Origin: Sporosarcina sp. P33
GTDB taxonomy: Bacteria; Bacillota; Bacilli; Bacillales_A; Planococcaceae
Length of the DNA stretch: 64,000 nt
Reading direction: 5' to 3'
Assembly: GCF_002077155.1 (NCBI RefSeq)
Contig: NZ_CP015027.1
Span: forward strand, 1,590,501-1,654,500
Made by a program: the position numbers and the translations under genes
In this document: positions 14,681 to 49,912 of the stretch, piece by piece
Layout of the letters: each line of letters opens with the position of its first letter
How positions within the stretch are numbered: position 1 is the stretch's first letter
The notes under the pieces: generated by a model
What the model was told of the DNA's origin: nothing
What the model saw: only the letters and a program-made list of their open reading frames with translations
The model's database searches: none

Positions 14681-14845
14681 ATCTTATCAAGAGAAGCTGA
14701 GGGACTGGCCCGTCGACGCTTCAGCAACCAGCCATTTAGGCAAGGTGCTACTTCCAGCAGTATGTGATGTTGTCATACTGAAAAGATGAGAGGGAACTAG
14801 TCATTGAGATTACAAAGCCTTCTAATATACTTGAAGGCTTTTTTT
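14681..14845 (+). promoter_or_regulatory. SAM-I (S-box) riboswitch with terminator
   Basis: Aptamer signatures in order are CTTATCAAGAGAAGCTGAGGG, GCTTCAGCAACC, AAGGTGCTA and GATGAGAGG. An intrinsic terminator follows (AAAGCCTTC/GAAGGCTTT then T-run, 14814-14845). By family knowledge, SAM binding favours the terminator, so the downstream methionine genes are expressed when SAM is low. Confidence 0.96.
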
Positions 14846-14874: not shown

Positions 14875-16734
14875 ATGTCATTGCTGGAGAAACTTCAAAC
14901 AAATGTCCTCACTGCAGATGGGGCTATGGGAACCATTTTATATTCTTATGGAATTGATTATTGTTATGAAGAACTGAATATAGAAAAGCCTGAAATTATA
15001 GAAAAGATTCACCAGGATTATATTGAGGCAGGAGCAGATATCATTCAAACGAATACGTACAGTGCGAACGCTATTAAGCTGGCACGTTACGGGCTGGAGA
15101 ACCGCGTAACAGATTACAATAAAGCCGCCATTCAAATTGCCAAGCGCGCAGCTGCACCAGGCGGACAGTTTGTTTTAGGGACAATCGGCGGTCTGCGCGG
15201 TATTCGCAAAAGCGATGCGACGTTAGACGAAATTAAGAAAGTCGTTCTTGAACAGGCAGATGCATTATTGACCGGTGATCCGGACGGTCTGCTGTTGGAG
15301 ACGTACTATGATTTCGAGGAACTGTCTTCAGTTGTAACCACGTTGCGCGAGATTACAGATGTTCCATTGATTGCCCAAGTATCCATGCATGATCCCGGCG
15401 TTTTACAAAACGGACTTTCCTTGAATGATGCACTGCATCAGCTCGATTCACTCGGCGCTGAAATCGTAGGAGTCAACTGCCGCCTCGGTCCGTATCATAC
15501 AATTCAGGCATTCGAAAACGTCACCTTGCCGGAAAAAGCATTTTTATCCGCTTATCCAAACGCCAGCCTGCTGGATGTTGAAGACGGGCGAATTGTGTAT
15601 GAATCAGAAGCAGAGTATTTCGGCCGCGCCGCCGTGCTGCTGCGTGACCAGGGAGTTCGGCTGATCGGCGGATGCTGCGGTACAACGCCTAAACATATTA
15701 AAGCTGCCAAAACACGATTAGAAGGGCTGTCACCTGTTACTAAAAAAGTTGTACAGCCATCAAAACCGATTGTGATTCAGGAAGCCGGCCCTGTAAAGCA
15801 TCAGCCGCTCCATGAAAAGGCTAAAACAGAACGGACAGTGATTGTGGAACTGGATACACCGCGCCATCTGGAGACTGAAGATTACATTAAAGGGGCGAAC
15901 CTGCTGTATGATGCAGGCGTAGATGCAATTACGATGGCGGATAATTCACTGGCTTCCCCGCGGATCAGCAATATGGCGATGGGCTCTATTATAAAAATGC
16001 AGCATAATGTCCGTCCCCTTGTACACTTAACTTGCCGTGACCATAACTTAATCGGTCTGCAGTCACATTTAATGGGACTTGATGCTCTGGGCATACACGA
16101 TATCCTGGCCGTTACAGGTGACCCGACAAAAGTTGGCGACTTCCCGGGCGCAACAAGCGTCTACGATGTATCAAGCATGGAATTGCTGCAGCTGATCAAG
16201 AAACTGAATGAAGGAATTTCATTCTCCGGTAAACCATTGCGGAAAAAAGCGAATTTCTCTATTTCAGCGGCCTTCAATCCGAACGTGCGCGTCGTTGAAC
16301 GGGCCGTGCAGCGGCTGGAGAAGAAGATTGAAGCCGGTGCCGACTACTTCATTACGCAGCCAGTTTACACAAAAGAGAAAATCATCGAAGTATACGAGGC
16401 AACTAAACATTTGGATACACCAATATTCATTGGAATTATGCCATTGACGAATATACGGAATGCGGAATTCCTGCATCATGAAGTACCTGGAATTAAGCTG
16501 TCTGACGAAGTATTGGAAAGAATGCGCGAGTGCGGTGATGACCGGAAAAAAGCAACTGAAACAGGCATTGAAATTGCCAAGGAACTTATTGACACTGCGG
16601 CAAAGTATTTTAACGGCCTGTACCTCATCACCCCATTCCTGCGTTACGACATGACCTTAGAGCTGTATGAATATATTAAAGAAATAGATGAGAAGAAGGA
16701 GAGGGAATTAACACATGCAGAGACATCCTATTGA
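14875..16734 (+). CDS. yitJ: Homocysteine S-methyltransferase / methylenetetrahydrofolate reductase fusion (YitJ type)
   Basis: Two-domain enzyme of the methionine pathway. Residues 1-290 are a homocysteine-binding methyltransferase barrel with zinc ligands Cys202 (GVNCRLGP) and Cys267/Cys268 (GGCCGTTP). Residues about 320-600 are an MTHFR-type FAD barrel that makes 5-methyl-THF (LTCRDHNLIGLQ, AVTGDPTK, ITQPVYT). The length of 619 matches the Bacillus fusion. GGGGAGA precedes the ATG by 7 nt. It overlaps metH by 20 nt, so the reductase supplies methyl-THF directly to the downstream methionine synthase. Expression is under the S-box riboswitch. Confidence 0.95.
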   Translation: MSLLEKLQTNVLTADGAMGTILYSYGIDYCYEELNIEKPEIIEKIHQDYIEAGADIIQTNTYSANAIKLARYGLENRVTDYNKAAIQIAKRAAAPGGQFVLGTIGGLRGIRKSDATLDEIKKVVLEQADALLTGDPDGLLLETYYDFEELSSVVTTLREITDVPLIAQVSMHDPGVLQNGLSLNDALHQLDSLGAEIVGVNCRLGPYHTIQAFENVTLPEKAFLSAYPNASLLDVEDGRIVYESEAEYFGRAAVLLRDQGVRLIGGCCGTTPKHIKAAKTRLEGLSPVTKKVVQPSKPIVIQEAGPVKHQPLHEKAKTERTVIVELDTPRHLETEDYIKGANLLYDAGVDAITMADNSLASPRISNMAMGSIIKMQHNVRPLVHLTCRDHNLIGLQSHLMGLDALGIHDILAVTGDPTKVGDFPGATSVYDVSSMELLQLIKKLNEGISFSGKPLRKKANFSISAAFNPNVRVVERAVQRLEKKIEAGADYFITQPVYTKEKIIEVYEATKHLDTPIFIGIMPLTNIRNAEFLHHEVPGIKLSDEVLERMRECGDDRKKATETGIEIAKELIDTAAKYFNGLYLITPFLRYDMTLELYEYIKEIDEKKERELTHAETSY

Positions 16735-19700
16735 AGAACAACTAGAGAAACGAATCCTTATCATTGATGGCGCGATGGGAACCATGCTGCAAGCGGAAGA
16801 CCTCTCGACGGAAGACTTCGGCGGAGAAGAATACGATGGATGCAACGAATACCTCAGTGTGCTGCGGCCCGACATTTTAGAAAGAATCCATGACGAGTAC
16901 TTGGAAGCAGGCGCAGATATCATTTGCACCAATACTTTCGGCGGCACCCCGCTTGTATTAAACGAGTTCTCACTGGGGCACCGTGCAGATGAAATCAATG
17001 CAAAGTCGGTAGAAATCGCGAAAAAAAGTGCGGCAAAATACTCTACGCCGGAATGGCCGCGCTTCGTCGCAGGCGCAATCGGACCTACGACCAAGACACT
17101 TTCTGTCACCGGCGGCATTACGTTTGATGAGCTGTCCAATGATTTCTACGTACAGGCAAAAGCCCTTGTGGAGGCAGGAAGCGACCTGATCCTGATGGAA
17201 ACGAGCCAGGATATGCTAAACGTCAAAGCCGGCACCATCGGAATTAAAAAAGCATTTGAAGAACTTGGACGCGAAATACCCATTATGATTTCAGGTACAA
17301 TCGAGCCGATGGGTACAACGCTTGCGGGACAAAGTATCGAAGCATTCTATATTTCAATCGAACATACCAGCCCTCTTTCCGTCGGCCTGAACTGCGCAAC
17401 AGGCCCTGAATTCATGACGGATCACTTGCGTTCATTATCTGAATTGGCAACGAGCTATGTCACGTGCTACCCAAACGCCGGATTGCCCGACGAGGAAGGT
17501 CATTATCATGAATCGCCCGAGTCATTATCGAAAAAGCTGGAAGGCTTCGCTGAGAAAGGCTGGCTGAATATGGTCGGCGGATGCTGCGGCACAACACCTG
17601 ACCATATACGCGCAATACGGGAAGCAGTGAAAGATAAAGCTCCCCGTCAAATGCCCGAGTCTCCTCAAGGACACGCAGTTTCAGGTATTGAGCCCCTGTT
17701 ATACGATGATACATTGCGTCCGCTGCTGATCGGCGAACGCACAAACGTGATTGGCTCCCGTAAGTTTAAACAATTAATTGTGGAAGAAAAGTTTGAGGAA
17801 GCTTCTGAAATCGCACGCGCACAAGTGAAGCGCGGAGCCCATGTTCTTGATATCTGTCTTGCAAATCCAGATCGTGATGAGTTACTCGACATGACACGCT
17901 TTATGAAGGAAGTCGTGAAAAAAGTCAAAGTTCCGCTCGTCATCGACTCTACAGATGAAAATGTTATTGCAGAAGCATTGAAATTTTCTCAAGGTAAAGC
18001 AATCATTAACTCTATTAACCTGGAAGACGGTGAAGAGCGCTTCGACGCGGTTCTTCCATTGGTGAAGAAATATGGAGCCGCAGTTGTCGTCGGGACAATC
18101 GATGAAACTGGAATGGCGGTCACAAGAGAGCGTAAATTGGAAGTCGCGCTGCGATCCTATGACCTGTTAGTCAATAAATGGGGGATCCGCCCCGAGGATA
18201 TTATTTTCGATCCGCTGGTCTTCCCTGTCGGCACAGGAGATGAGCAGTATATTGGCTCGGCTGTAGAAACAATTGAAGGAATTCGCATGATCAAAGAAAA
18301 ACTTCCACGCACTCTTACGACCCTGGGCGTCAGTAACGTGTCATTCGGATTGCCGCCGGTTGGCCGTGAAGTGCTGAACGCAGTATATTTATATCACTGT
18401 ACACAAGCAGGCTTGGATTATGCGATTGTTAATACAGAGAAGCTGGAGCGTTACGCCTCCATTCCAGAGGATGAAATCAAGCTGGCGAACGACTTGCTGT
18501 TTACAACAACTGATGAGACGCTTGCGGATTTCACAGCTTTCTACAGAGGAAAGAAAAAAGAAAAGACGGAAAATGACATACCAAAAACCGTATCTGAACG
18601 CTTGGCTTACTATGTAGTGGAAGGCACGAAAGAAGGTCTGATTCCTGACTTGGATGCCGCTTTACAAACGTACGATGCACCGCTTGATATTATTAATGGA
18701 CCTTTAATGAAAGGAATGGCGGAAGTCGGAAGGCTGTTTAACGACAACCAGCTCATCGTAGCGGAAGTTCTGCAAAGCGCAGAAGTTATGAAAGCGTCTG
18801 TTTCATATCTGGAGCAGTTTATGGATAAGAAAGAAGACGACAGCGGAAAAGGCAAGATCGTACTGGCCACGGTAAAAGGCGATGTGCATGATATCGGGAA
18901 AAACCTGGTGGAAATTATTTTAAGTAATAATGGATTCAAAGTAATCGATATCGGAATCAAAGTGACACCTGCCGCTTTAATCGAAGTAATTCGGGAAGAA
19001 AAGCCCGACATTGTCGGTTTATCCGGCCTGCTCGTTAAGTCCGCGCAGCAAATGGTCTTGACCGCACAGGACTTCAAAGCGGCTGGCATCGATACACCTG
19101 TAATGGTCGGCGGAGCGGCACTGACAAGACGTTTTACTGAAACTAAAATTGCTCCTGAATATGACGGTCCCGTTATTTTTGCGAAAGATGCGATGCAGGG
19201 CCTTGATTTGGCAAACCGGCTGCAAAGTGAAGGCAAAGAAGCATTACTTGTAGAGCTTGCTGAAAGCATTGAAAAGCGGGAAACTAATGACGCGATTAAA
19301 GCAAGCCGCGGCGCTACTGCAGTCGCAGTCAAGCCGCGTCCTGTGAAAACTGTACGTTCTGACGTTCCAGTGTTCACGCCGACAGATTTGCGCCGGCGTG
19401 TAGTAAAAGATTATTCCGTTGCCCATTTACACCCTTATGTTAATATGCGCACATTGATTGGCCATCACCTCGGATTACGGGGAAATGTCGCCAAGATGCT
19501 TGAAAATAAAGATGAGCGGGCTGTGCAACTTCATGAAATGGTCACAGAGTTCCTGCAATCAGATAAAATGACCGCTTCCGGTATTTATCAGTTCTTCCCT
19601 GCCCAGGCAGACGGCGATGACGTGATCATTTACGACCCTGAAGATTCCAAAACGGAAATCGAGCGATTCACGTTCCCGCGCCAGGACAAAGAGCCATTCC

Positions 19701-20155
19701 TTTGCTTGGCTGATTACTTGAAAACGGTGGACAGCGGCGAGATGGATTACGTTGCTTTCATGCAAGTAACTGCCGGCAAGGGAGTTCGTGATTACGCAAA
19801 TAAACTGAAGGAAGAAGGGAAATTCCTTGAAAGCCATGCATTCCAGGCGACTGCTTTAGAACTGGCTGAAGGATTTGCCGAACGGATTCACCAGGAAATT
19901 CGAGATCAGTGGGGTTTCCCTGACCCGACAGACTTCACCATGCGCGAACGTTTCGCAGCCAAATACCAGGGGCAGCGATTCTCTTTCGGCTATCCGGCTT
20001 GTCCGAATCTGGAAGACCAGGCGAAACTCTTCAAACTCATCAAACCAGAAGATCACGGCGTCATCCTGACCGAAGAATTCATGATGGAACCAGAAGCATC
20101 CGTATCCGCCATCGTCTTCGCACACCCCGACGCACGATACTTCAACGTGGAATAA
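16715..20155 (+). CDS. metH: Cobalamin-dependent methionine synthase
   Basis: Transfers a methyl group from 5-methyl-THF to homocysteine via methylcobalamin. The full-length protein (1146 residues) has four modules: a homocysteine domain with zinc ligands Cys227, Cys290 and Cys291; a pterin-binding domain (about 350-610, [15 protein letters not shown]); a B12 module with the DxHxxG motif (Asp723, His725, Gly728), where His725 is the lower cobalt ligand; and a C-terminal SAM-dependent reactivation domain ([12 protein letters not shown] to end). The start ATG lies inside the end of yitJ. The organism therefore needs B12 or makes it, unlike B. subtilis, which relies on MetE. Confidence 0.97.
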
Positions 20156-20253
20156 CAAAAGCGGAAAACGCCGGATAGACTCGACAGGCGTTGGAAGAAC
20201 TGACAGAAAGGCGCTCTTTGCCTTTTTGACAGGTCTGAAACGTCCCGAGAGTC
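20154..20253 (+). repeat. Structured direct repeat, copy 1
   Basis: About 100 bp starting immediately after the metH stop codon (AACAAAAGCGGAAAACGCCGG). The ends are partly self-complementary (AGACTC ... GAGTCT). The centre folds as CTGACAGAAAGGC / GCCTTTTTGACAG (11 of 13 paired). A second copy begins 121 bp downstream. Confidence 0.85.
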
Positions 20254-20274
20254 TGGCGTTTGGATCTGGATGAG

Positions 20275-20374
20275 AACAAAAGCGGAAAACGCCGGGCAGA
20301 CTCGACAGGCGTTGGAAGAACTGACAGAAAGGCGCTCTTTGCCTTTTTGACAGGTCTGAAACGTCCCGAGAGTC
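20275..20374 (+). repeat. Structured direct repeat, copy 2
   Basis: Nearly identical to the copy at 20154-20253, with a few substitutions (for example GGATAGAC to GGGCAGAC). It keeps the same inner hairpin and the AGACTC/GAGTCC outer arm. The pair resembles short dispersed palindromic elements of Bacillales, but I cannot search for others. Confidence 0.85.
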
Positions 20375-29397: not shown

Positions 29398-29415
29398 TAG
29401 CCTGTCTGATACATA

Positions 29416-29547
29416 GTCACCACTGGGGGTGCCTCCACTTTGGCTGAGATGCAATTAAGCAAACCCTTTGAACCTGATCTAGTCTGTACTAGCGGAGGGA
29501 AGTGGGTAGTTTTCATACCCAACCGCCCATCCATGCATGGGCTTTTT
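29416..29547 (+). promoter_or_regulatory. TPP (THI-box) riboswitch with terminator
   Basis: The aptamer contains CACTGGGGGTGCC, GGCTGAGATG, ACCCTTTGAACCTGATCT and GTACTAGCGGAGGGAAGTGG, all in order. A GCCCAT/ATGGGC hairpin with TTTTT follows (29525-29547), ahead of the thiM ribosome-binding site. By family knowledge, TPP binding terminates transcription. Confidence 0.96.
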
Positions 29548-34464: not shown

Positions 34465-35592
34465 TCATCCCTCCTTTATTTGTTTCAAAACTGCAGGAAC
34501 CGTTATTTTAACTTGTGTTCCCTGATCACTCGTAATCGAAAGTTTTCCATTCACGAACTCCAGCCGCTCTCCCATACCGTCAAGCCCGTTGCCCGGAAGG
34601 TTTACACCATTTTTTGCGATGCCGATTCCGTTGTCTTTCACTTTGATTACAAACTCTTTATCCGTTCGTTCAAAAAGAATACAGCAATATTTGGCGTAGC
34701 TGTGTTTTACGACATTATTAATCGCCTCTTTCAAACACATGACTAACACATTTTCTACAATAGGAGACATATCAGGAAAGTTTGGATCCCCTTTTAGTTC
34801 GTATTCGATTTCAGCCGCATTCAGTAATTCTTGGACGCGCACCAGCTCATCTTTCAGCTTCACACGGCGCATCCCGCTGACAAGAACACGCACTTCTTTT
34901 AATGCTGTGCTGGAAATTTGCCGGATATCCTGAATTTCTGCTTTTGCCGACTCCATATCCCGGTCCATTAATCGTGTAGCCAAATCACTTTTTAAGCCAA
35001 TCATTGATAATTTCTGTCCCAGCGTATCATGCAGGTCACGTGCAATCCGCTCGCGTTCTTGGATAATTGTGAGCTCCGAGATCCGCTGTCTGGCAACTTC
35101 CAGCTGATCTTGCAACAGATCCCGTTTTTGCCGGTTATACAGGTTGAAAGGCAGCAGAACCACTCCGATAACCGAGATAATTATAAAATGTATTTGCGGT
35201 AAAAATAAATCAATTTCAACGAAGAATCCTGCAACTATTGCCCCAATTAATATCGCAATATGTAAGCCATAAATTATGAAAAAACCTACCGGGTTCCGTA
35301 TATTTCCAATAAAGAATGCAATAAACAGCGACAGATAAACATAGCCGAACATCAGCGTCATCACTACGGAAATGACGATTTCAAAGCTGATCCACATATA
35401 CATGAGACCGCTTTTTGATTTAGCAGAGAAATAATAAGAAAGGAAAAAGAGTACCAGCAGTCCCACACCAATCATTAAATTTAGCGGAGACGCACTTCGC
35501 AATATAAAAAAGAAAGGTAATATACAAAACACAACCCAGGCATAAATGCTGAGCCATGGACTTTTCGGAAAAATACTATACCAACTGTACAT
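34465..35592 (-). CDS. desK: Thermosensor histidine kinase DesK
   Basis: Membrane kinase/phosphatase that senses membrane thickness or order at low temperature. The 375 residues contain five hydrophobic segments in the first ~150 residues, then a two-helix DHp domain with ERIARDLHDTLGQK (His188, the same position as in B. subtilis DesK). The HATPase_c domain follows (EAINNVVKHS, KDNGIGI, GNGLDGMGERL). A short charged N-terminal cap (SWYSIFPKSPW) precedes helix 1. It forms an operon with desR, 115 nt after des and its terminator. Confidence 0.95.
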   Translation of the reverse strand: MYSWYSIFPKSPWLSIYAWVVFCILPFFFILRSASPLNLMIGVGLLVLFFLSYYFSAKSKSGLMYMWISFEIVISVVMTLMFGYVYLSLFIAFFIGNIRNPVGFFIIYGLHIAILIGAIVAGFFVEIDLFLPQIHFIIISVIGVVLLPFNLYNRQKRDLLQDQLEVARQRISELTIIQERERIARDLHDTLGQKLSMIGLKSDLATRLMDRDMESAKAEIQDIRQISSTALKEVRVLVSGMRRVKLKDELVRVQELLNAAEIEYELKGDPNFPDMSPIVENVLVMCLKEAINNVVKHSYAKYCCILFERTDKEFVIKVKDNGIGIAKNGVNLPGNGLDGMGERLEFVNGKLSITSDQGTQVKITVPAVLKQIKEG

Positions 35593-36754: not shown

Positions 36755-36828
36755 GTTTGAATTTCCCTCCTAGTGGGGTTGCTAATACATTAAGGATAAC
36801 TTTTATGCAGCGGGAGGGGTAGGCATAG

Positions 36829-36858
36829 ATGTCATGACTTTGAGATGACAAATGTCAT
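36829..36858 (-). promoter_or_regulatory. Candidate DesR operator
   Basis: A perfect inverted repeat ATGACA-AA-TGTCAT (36845-36858) is preceded by a second ATGTCATGAC half (36829-36838). It lies 75-105 nt upstream of the des start codon, where DesR would be expected to bind. No promoter was called with confidence. Confidence 0.6.
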
Positions 36859-36930
36859 ATGTTTTGGGACATGTCTGCTTTGGGTATAGTCAATGGGATT
36901 GGATTGTGCTTTGTGCAGAAGGGATTGGGT

Positions 36931-37329
36931 CTTAGCCATCCGCCAGCGCTGCAGTGAGTTCAATGCCGTTTTTGCTCTGGTTTTAGGGTCGTTGCTCGAC
37001 TTTTTGTCGGGGATTGGAGTTAGCGAGTGTCCGCTCTTAAGACCCGCGCAGGCACGTGGGGGATTGCCTTTCGTCATGAGCCAGCTGGCGATAGTGCGTG
37101 CCAGTTGTCTCATGACTTCCGCCGACCCCGCAGTTGTGCCTGCGCTGCTGAATGGAGCCAATTCAGGTTACTTTTTTAAAAGAGAAGAAGTGCAGTGACT
37201 CGTTGCCGACTGGCATATGCTTTGGCAAATGATGTGTCTTAATTGCTTCCCCCTCACTAAACGGAGGCGCCTTACAAGCGGTCGGCGAAGTGATGAGACT
37301 GACAGGCGATCTTCCTGTCTGGCTCATTG
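36931..37329. repeat. Tandem 400-bp structured repeat, copy 1
   Basis: First of three units. It contains a nested inverted repeat: outer arms GCGCAGGCAC (37046-37055) / GTGCCTGCGC (37136-37145), and inner arms GTCATGAG (37073-37080) / CTCATGAC (37109-37116) extended by CAGCTGGC/GCCAGTTG. A second hairpin GACAGG/CCTGTC sits at 37301-37319. Open frames of about 100 codons occur but have no ribosome-binding site or family features. Confidence 0.85.
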
Positions 37330-37728
37330 CGTAGCCATCCGCCAGCGCCGCAGTGAGTTCAATGCCGTTTTGTCTCTGGTTTTGTGGTCGTTGCTCGATC
37401 GGTTATCAGGGATTGAAGTCAGCAAGTGTCAACCTTTAGGACCCGCGCAGGCACGTGGGGGATTGCCTTTCGTCATGAGCCAGCTGGCGATAGTGCGTGC
37501 CAGTTGTCTCATGACTTCCGCCGACCCCGCAGTTGTGCCTGCGCTGCTGAGTGGAGCCAATTCAGGTTACTTTTTTAAAAGAGAAGAAGTGCAGTGACTC
37601 GTTGCCGACTGGCATATGCTTTGGCAAATGATGTGTTTTAATTGCTTCCCCCTCACTAAACGGAGGCGCCTTACAAGCGGTCGGCGAAGTGATGAGACTG
37701 ACAGGCGATCTTCCTGTCTGGCTCATTG
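37330..37728. repeat. Tandem 400-bp structured repeat, copy 2
   Basis: About 95 percent similar by eye to copy 1 at a spacing of exactly 399 bp. The outer arms are at 37445-37454 and 37535-37544, the second hairpin at 37700-37718. The stretch from GTGGGGGATTGCC through the TTTTTTAAAAGAGAAG tract is almost unchanged. Confidence 0.85.
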
Positions 37729-38130
37729 CGTAGCCATCCGCCAGCGCCGCAGTGACTTCAATATCGTTTTGTCTCTGGTTTTGTGGTCGTTGCTCGATCG
37801 GTTATCAGGGATTGAAGTCAGCAAGTGTCCACTCTTAAGACCCGCGCAGGCACGTGGGGGATTGCCTTTCGTCATGAGCCAGCTGGCGAGGTGCGTGCCA
37901 GTTGTCTCATGACTTCGGCCGACCCCGCAGTTGTGCCTGCGCTGCTGAGTGGAGCCAATTCAGGTTATTTTTTTAAAAGGGAAGAAGTGCAGTGACTGGT
38001 AGACGACTGGCGTGTGCTTTGGCAAAAGACGTGTCATCCTCCGCTTCCCTCCTTACTAAACGAAGGCGCCTTACAAGCGGTCGGCGAAGTGATGAGACTG
38101 ACAGGGCGCACTTCCCTGTCTGGCTCATTG
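37729..38130. repeat. Tandem 400-bp structured repeat, copy 3
   Basis: More diverged third unit (spacing about 402 bp). The outer arms (37844-37853 / 37933-37942) are retained exactly. The second hairpin gained matching bases on both arms: GACAGGG (38100-38106) with CCCTGTC (38114-38120). Confidence 0.85.
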
Positions 38131-38163
38131 CGTAGCCATCCGCCAGCGCCGCAGTGAGTTCAA
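38131..38163. repeat. Partial fourth repeat unit
   Basis: About 33 bp (TAGCCATCCGCCAGCGCC and following) identical to the start of the preceding units; similarity stops at about 38163. From there to about 38400 nothing recognisable is seen. Confidence 0.8.
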
Positions 38164-38419
38164 AGCTGTTCCCCTTCTTCTCTCGCAATGACAGCAACTG
38201 GTGTAATCCAGATATGATGCAGAAGACCAGAACAAGATCTGTATACCTGAACAGGATAGGCTTTTTCAGTATGAAACACCCAACTCCGCATGCAGCTTGC
38301 CGGCGGGATTATCGCTTACCGTATCTTCACTCGTATGGGATTGTGATTTAGCTTGCGCAACGTGATATATCATTGGACATTTCTAAAAAAACGTTCAAAA
38401 TATATAAAAGTAGAAAGGG

Positions 38420-49569: not shown

Positions 49570-49790
49570 ATAAAAAAAGTCCTCTGCAAACAGAGCCAGT
49601 CAGCCTGTTGCAGAGGACGATTAAATAACCGCGTTGCCACCTCAAATTGAAGCGCCTGAGCACTCCCACTTTATGTGTTTTCACACTGCCCTTAACGCGG
49701 GCACACGTCTGTTTTGAAACAAAACAGCTGCCATAAGTCCATTCACGAATGCCGTGTATCAGTTCCCACCCGCCACTGACTCTCTAGCAA
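49570..49790 (-). promoter_or_regulatory. T-box riboswitch, tRNA-Trp specific
   Basis: The trpE leader has the T-box core GAGGTGGCAACGCGG (plus 49629-49641 region) and a long terminator GTCCTCTGCAAAC.../GTTGCAGAGGAC with T-run at 49570-49620. The specifier context is GTGAATGGACTT, with TGG (Trp) on the minus strand at plus 49741-49739. The bulge TGGC would pair with G73, the discriminator of tRNA-Trp. Uncharged tRNA-Trp should activate the operon. Confidence 0.92.
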
Positions 49791-49912
49791 GCACGTGCAA
49801 TCGCTACTCTTCTTATTCTGATCTTTTCGCTATTCTCTTCTATGCTGACTCTGCTCATCTAACGTGGACGACTTCGCTCCCGAAATCTTCTGTCCGTCTA
49901 GTAATTACATTT

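Follow-up and report, generated by a model that had tools for sequence, protein, structure and literature searches.

The tandem repeat at positions 36931 to 38170 (plus strand) of a 64,000-nucleotide stretch of DNA from Sporosarcina sp. P33, referred to here as the window, is composed of two large hairpin modules, A and B, which are inverted homologues of one another and which stand, by TRF and module annotation, in the intact order A B A B A B. The same modules occur in dispersed arrays elsewhere in this genome and in the genomes of its relatives. We read them, with slightly more confidence than doubt, as a mosaic repeat of the BIME/REPIN kind, made of giant hairpins that would be old, vertically inherited, dispersed by a hairpin-recognizing process, and reshaped by recombination. 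The array sites that several species share offer a natural set for measuring array growth, loss, and within-genome homogenization. The family also opens two questions to testing: what moves and equalizes hairpin repeats that have no RAYT linked to them, and the reason for their persistence.

Architecture of the Array in the Window

An earlier note on this DNA had described three tandem repeats of about 400 bp, and the TRF result (36933 to 38170, period 399, 3.1 copies, 93% matches) and the direct-repeat spacings of 399, 399, and 402 agree with that description. By BLAST, the two outer unit copies match the middle one at 95% and 92% identity, and these identities, together with the 109 matches to the genome in the same search, exclude chance as the source of the repeat. 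Three covariance models were used for the modules: R1, built from A, R2, built from B, and R3, built from more diverse copies. Module A is a forward stem-loop of about 115 nt that lies at 37041 to 37156 (A1, R1 score 136.2 bits), 37440 to 37555 (A2, 138 bits), and 37839 to 37953 (A3, 138.7 bits). Module B, a stem-loop of about 93 nt and the inverted homologue of A, lies at 37263 to 37355 (B1, R2 score 111.6 bits), 37662 to 37754 (B2, 111.6 bits), and 38062 to 38156 (B3, 103.7 bits, with a GACAGGG/CCCTGTC tip read from the sequence). All six are annotated on the plus strand.

The arms to which the earlier note had drawn attention, GCGCAGGCAC/GTGCCTGCGC and GTCATGAG/CTCATGAC, are indeed present, but they are pieces of the single long stem-loop of module A, and the supposedly separate GACAGG/CCTGTC hairpin turns out to be the mere tip of the second long stem-loop, module B. 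What had been taken for one element with two unrelated hairpins is instead a pair of mutually inverted homologous hairpins. Module B, whose base is GGCGC...GCGCC, crosses the unit boundary as originally drawn. The 33-bp stretch regarded as a partial fourth unit belongs to the third B, of which it forms the 3' half. At the left end of the array, the first unit opens (36933 to 36958, plus strand) with the leftover 3' half of a lost B, the array match beginning at position 1 of the unit. Since B straddles the drawn boundary, the content of the window array is ABABAB plus a left half-B remnant. The first A is preceded by a leader (36985 to 37040, plus strand, from comparison of the 5' flanks) containing GTCGTTGCTCGAC and GTCCGCTCTTAAGAC, which may form small hairpins; a similar leader opens most arrays of the P33 genome, as judged by eye from the 5' flanks. 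The last B is followed by a 3' tail (38157 to 38225, plus strand) that, again by eye from the 3' flanks, resembles the sequence after the last B in many of the genome's arrays.

In copy 3, the gain of a G on one arm of the B tip and of a matching C on the other had been put forward as a compensatory change. The change is real, but paralogues at L038:3798, L031:5335, and L044:3908 carry the extra C with no matching G, so the copy-3 event is weak evidence; it was downgraded from key evidence, and the argument for structure is carried by family-wide covariation. Elsewhere in the window, a tandem repeat at 20154 to 20374 (period 121, 1.8 copies, 98% matches), which lies at or just past the end of the ORF at 16715 to 20155, looks like a recent duplication.

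Fold, Homology, and Covariation of the Hairpin Modules

Module A (A2) folds with a minimum free energy of -60.9 kcal/mol (z -4.6), and module B (B2) with one of -41.6 (z -2.9). The reverse complement of B aligns locally to A with a score of 69.5, whereas the best of 300 shuffles reaches 49.8; the direct alignment of B to A scores 48.5, since both modules are palindromes. At 43 other loci, from other groups, 57 of the 58 R1 matches overlap an opposite-strand R2 match, and 57 of the 59 R2 matches overlap an opposite-strand R1 match. As the two models match the same places on opposite strands, A and B constitute one hairpin family in two orientations. The forward consensus of this family, read by eye from the alignment, is CGCTTCGGCGC-TT-GnGGATGCCTCCCGCnATAAGCC, a variable stem and loop, GTCTTATnGCTTCGGCTACCnC, and GGCGCC. 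The motif GTAG is present in 109 of 143 sequences, mainly (by eye) inside an internal loop of the stem-loop.

The paired structure of the hairpin is under selection. Among 143 distinct sequences, 96.0% of the cells of a 25-pair structure are paired, and 18 of the 25 pairs change on both sides (506 cells). The covariation score is 0.388 against 0.140 for shuffled alignments, none of the 500 shuffles reaching 0.388, and it is at most 0.086 when the partners are slid, with up to 12 of the 25 pairs still changing on both sides in these slid controls; fitting the alignment to the structure favors the score, yet the controls fall far below it. Selection for paired structure, which the earlier note had suspected and proposed to pursue through covariation among homologues, is thus borne out across the family, by a form of the test other than R-scape.

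Searches of Rfam gave no match to the array, whether in the window and five relative loci at the gathering score or in the array region at E values up to 1. By Rfam, the window contains T-box leaders at 1799 to 2014 and 49610 to 49829, a SAM riboswitch at 14681 to 14792, and a TPP riboswitch at 29415 to 29517.

Distribution in the Genome and Among Relatives

Copies elsewhere in the genome, for which the earlier note had proposed to look, are numerous: grouped by position, the 109 BLAST matches in the 3.24 Mb genome form 19 dispersed arrays, that of the window included. These arrays occur in both orientations, and in several of them the last units are short, about 240 nt, and carry B only. Among 68 Sporosarcina genomes, 26 hold the unit by DNA search and 41 match the R2 model; 25 of the 68 have no module by R2 (E 1e-3) or R3 (E 1e-5), so the arrays are not essential in the genus. 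The R1 model matches 74 of 261 genomes of the family. The R3 model matches 103 of 261 genomes of the order, in 7 of 19 genera; this order-level search drew the same number of genomes as that of the family, and all matches listed belong to that family. In a class-wide sample, 20 of 398 genomes match at E 1e-5, all from this family, the searches of more than 40 genomes having used stricter filters by which weak matches were lost. Planococcus salinus is among the carriers outside Sporosarcina. The repeat periods in relatives are 248, 278, 283, 268, 217, and 208 nt. A distant blastn search with a 445-nt query found no match in phage and plasmid collections.

Several further observations concern the records themselves. 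Three records titled Arthrobacter beigongshangensis (L227, L247, and L258) carry the hairpins; the title looks mislabelled, with Sporosarcina (G002) as the apparent source. In draft genomes, module matches lie at contig ends (e.g., G030:C39, G066:C9, and G066:C15), so the arrays may break short-read assemblies. About one to three modules are left in G029 and G031, which suggests near-total array loss in one lineage. At about 1655 to 1790 of locus L119 (G005), the hairpin modules have another intergenic repeat beside them, GC-rich and palindrome-like, CTCCTGCGGAAT...GAGGAGGCT...CCGCGGAACGCG; this locus has no Rfam match, and repeats of this type are known from Bacillaceae genomes.

Module Order and Copy Number

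Module order is polar, with A followed by B. In a survey of 56 arrays from five genomes (19 from P33, 17 from G065, 8 from G064, 6 from G032, and 6 from G063), 55 begin with A, 49 end with B, and none contains a module flipped relative to the rest of its own array. All 37 arrays of the other four genomes have the order A+B*, the extremes being A, AAAAAABBB, and ABBBBBBBB, and three of the 56 arrays consist of a single A. In P33, whole A-B pairs have been multiplied, as in ABABABABB; all 19 of its arrays end with B, but only two are strictly A*B*, a point against the BIME-like reading. Across other Sporosarcina and a few relatives, where neighbor order was counted at 74 of 80 loci, forward-then-inverted neighbors within 450 nt number 21 and inverted-then-forward neighbors 5, and the order A*B* holds in 29 of 33 clusters.

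Shared Sites, Loss, and Homogenization

Many array sites have been inherited vertically, as their sharing in place and orientation demonstrates. By tblastx of both flanks, thirteen sites hold an array in two or in three of the five genomes, and no partner at a shared site has the opposite orientation. Ten of the 19 P33 arrays have a partner at the same site in the sampled species, partners having been sought only among arrays retrieved from relatives. A purely local duplication, as the earlier note had entertained, does not account for an array that is one of 19 in its genome, ten of them at such common sites.

The window array lies between a fatty-acid desaturase gene (PF00487) and a PAP2 gene (PF01569). 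Modules occur at this site in 6 of 30 loci, P33 counted: ABABAB in P33, ABBB in G062, A in G063, AABB in G065, AAABB in G066, and B, at a contig start, in G030. The array is absent from the near relatives G029, G031, and G064, in which, by eye, a leader-like vestige is kept. Because of this vestige, the empty sites are taken as losses and not gains, and their use as insertion targets was rejected. Two further sites, compared in up to 15 genomes, are likewise filled in some and empty in others. Evidence of loss in place of gain at the empty window sites, together with the lack of a defined target duplication, weighs against the BIME-like reading. Upstream of the desaturase gene and near a DesK gene (34465 to 35592, DesK_N), a palindrome-like stretch at 36828 to 36861 is conserved, apart from small changes, in the eight relatives compared; we take it to be a possible DesR site.

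Within the P33 genome, the dispersed copies show a pattern of homogenization. In a tree of first-A-plus-leader sequences, which has no branch support values, five P33 copies form one group, and three of these five sit at sites common to other species. Two copies from one genome are on average 80.6% identical (46 pairs). For copies from different genomes, the mean is 73.1% where the site is the same (35 pairs) and 74.3% where it differs (325 pairs), so that a shared site gives no added likeness. The pattern is clear in P33, but in the tree the copies from G030, G062, and G063 are intermixed, and this, like the missing effect of a shared site on identity, also tells against the BIME-like reading; the same-site identity among these three, up to 92%, is expected from their recent splits.

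Proposed Origin and Spread

In the reading that we favor, that of a BIME-like mosaic, the ancestral element would have been an inverted doublet of one large hairpin, with A forward and B inverted. In an ancestor of the bacterial family, a putative enzyme recognizing one strand of the folded hairpin may have dispersed this doublet, and many of the sites would then have been passed on vertically, in keeping with the sites and orientations now shared. The observed differences from site to site would have arisen through tandem duplication and deletion of A, B, or A-B pairs, and recombination or gene conversion would have made the dispersed copies alike within a genome, as the P33 pattern suggests. 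The flavor of a palindromic mobile element, which was among the roles first considered, is supported in this respect.

The RAYT/Y1_Tnp transposase was considered as the mover but is not supported. Y1_Tnp occurs in 51 of the 68 genus genomes, namely in 29 of the 41 module-positive and 22 of the 27 module-negative ones (p 0.40), and no module was found at 30 Y1_Tnp loci, a subset of the Y1 matches whose stretches were searched with R1 and R2. No dispersal enzyme emerged from the Y1_Tnp search of the 68 genus genomes, which counts against the BIME-like reading. At 2403018 to 2405103 of the P33 genome (L334:19-2104), a Y1-type transposase-like ORF of 217 aa overlaps with the end of a pair of consecutive ORFs resembling one split ATPase, presumably ComM-like.

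Gene Setting, Strand Signal, and Alternative Readings

Convergent gene pairs surround 19 of the 56 arrays and make up 6 of 77 background pairs (p 2e-4), the background being other neighboring pairs in the same loci with gaps of 100 to 1500 nt, and gene calls around arrays being longest-ORF heuristics. The window array is one of 6 among the 56 that lie between divergent genes. Of the 69 flanks that face a gene 3' end, 36 have a terminator-like signal between the gene and the array, compared with 3 of the 43 that face a gene start. Since convergent pairs and gene 3' ends are favored, about half of the latter beyond a terminator-like signal, the arrays today most likely affect DNA structure and local recombination, not coding; long retention is the one sign that would point to a benefit for the host. 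Among co-directional gene pairs, the B side is at the gene 3' end in 21 and the A side in 10 (p 0.07), and a bias in array direction is not claimed. Replication-strand orientation, judged by eye from the coordinates with an assumed origin position, is mixed on both halves and was set aside.

In B modules, G.U outnumbers A.C by 120:10 on the plus strand of the array (98 distinct rows), but 98 of the 120 G.U cells come from two pairs and the remainder is 22:10 (p 0.05). In the B orientation of other groups, the ratio is 53:10 (p 3e-8), and in a larger set 106:42. In A modules, it is 283:48 (117 distinct rows), with 276 of the 283 from three pairs, outside which it is 7:29 and favors the opposite strand (p 3e-4); all these p values are optimistic, as cells count sequences and not events. 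Each hairpin may have one preferred strand, A and B on opposite strands. The contradiction between the A and B signals counts against the BIME-like reading. The strand signal is not decisive, and it would fit recognition of single-stranded hairpins, by analogy with TnpA-REP, at least as well as one transcript.

Such a transcript is the basis of the leading alternative, an unlikely one in our estimate, in which the array is a structured non-coding RNA: the A-to-B strand would be transcribed and the hairpins would act as RNA, through protein binding, as sRNA precursors, or as RNase III substrates. The very stable folds and the covarying pairs suit it, as do the G.U excess in the B modules and in the other groups, the three A pairs that are G.U-rich on the same strand as B, and internal loops that read from the alignment as purine-rich on the B strand. 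A single transcript was convincing as the source of the G.U excess in small alignments and was weakened by the larger count. Most of the B excess comes from the two pairs, the A modules outside their three pairs would have A and B fold on opposite strands, and in 29 of the 56 arrays it is the A side that lies toward a co-directional gene end. The placement of terminator-like signals at gene 3' ends and the lack of an Rfam match to the array also count against this alternative.

A more speculative scheme, to which we assign a somewhat lower probability, is a bacterial "satellite" system of polar A(n)B(m) hairpin arrays at fixed sites. Their genome-wide homogenization would be the work of a dedicated single-strand hairpin recombinase independent of RAYT, or of a chromosome-organizing protein of this bacterial family, with the A and B ends as distinct boundary elements. 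Lower still we place a transcription insulator or DNA-topology site, where gyrase, SMC, or nucleoid proteins would bind at cruciforms and the array would be selected as DNA. The excess at convergent gene pairs, the retention of sites and orientation, and the fact that A forward and B inverted present the same look from both sides would agree with such a role, as would the binding of gyrase and IHF by E. coli BIMEs reported in the available text of PMC2817692. Against it stand the single-A arrays, the lack of the window array in three near relatives, the 25 genus genomes with no module, and the B strand bias, which favors single-strand folding. Finally, a coding repeat for a small or repetitive protein is highly improbable even though 399 is a multiple of three and a 126-aa ORF lies inside the array: elsewhere in the genome, near-full units are matched over 394 to 402 nt, which shifts the frame and leaves no shared reading frame, Pfam has no match for any of the four open frames within the array (in keeping with the earlier note, which saw no recognizable gene), the periods in relatives are 208 to 283 nt, and the base-pair changes are compensatory.

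Comparison with Known Repeat Systems

The bcr1 and BOX repeats of Gram-positive bacteria resemble the modules in being dispersed, structured, intergenic, and possibly mobile; no sequence relation between them and the modules is known. Eukaryotic satellite and rDNA arrays are likewise tandem and undergo concerted evolution across dispersed sites. The modules differ from these in being bacterial, with few copies per array and hairpin-paired units. In the open-access literature, no description of the module family was found, which is weak evidence as subscription journals were mostly outside the scope, and the available text of a comparative-genomics paper on Sporosarcina (PMC5930826) has no mention of intergenic, non-coding, or palindromic and a single, unrelated use of "repeat".

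The STAR elements of Staphylococcus, as presented in the available text of PMC3532100, are similar to the modules in that they are interspersed intergenic direct repeats of the Bacillales with copy number that varies at fixed loci. Unlike the modules, STAR elements are built of 14-bp repeats separated by spacers of 40 bp or more, and that text has no mention of stem-loops or secondary structure. It also argues against inter-locus exchange (PMC3532100), whereas the module copies of P33 look homogenized.

With the REP, BIME, and REPIN systems, as far as the available texts describe them (PMC2817692, PMC8266576, PMC8049555), the modules share imperfect intergenic palindromes with stem mismatches, inverted doublets and tandem arrays with strand polarity, and long persistence without clear horizontal transfer. 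Like those systems, the family is a many-copy intergenic palindrome in which each unit holds two inverted copies and the units are in tandem. In the same available texts, REP systems are described as a palindrome after GTAG with a linked RAYT (PMC8266576, PMC2817692), the REP palindrome being 20-50 nt long and most often preceded by GTAG, and TnpA-REP as recognizing folded single strands in a strand-specific manner (PMC8266576). The modules, at about 90-116 nt, are about twice the REP length or more, and GTAG, where present, lies inside the stem-loop and not in front of the hairpin. In contrast to RAYT systems, in which the RAYT gene lies between two inverted repeats, the tested Y1 loci hold no module and Y1_Tnp shows no correlation with the modules; in contrast to REPs and BIMEs, the order is fixed as A then B, and A and B expand separately. 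On account of their length, the position of GTAG, and the lack of a linked RAYT, the modules are not a REP system by published description, but their architecture is BIME-like, and they would represent a Gram-positive counterpart to BIMEs in which the hairpins are far larger.
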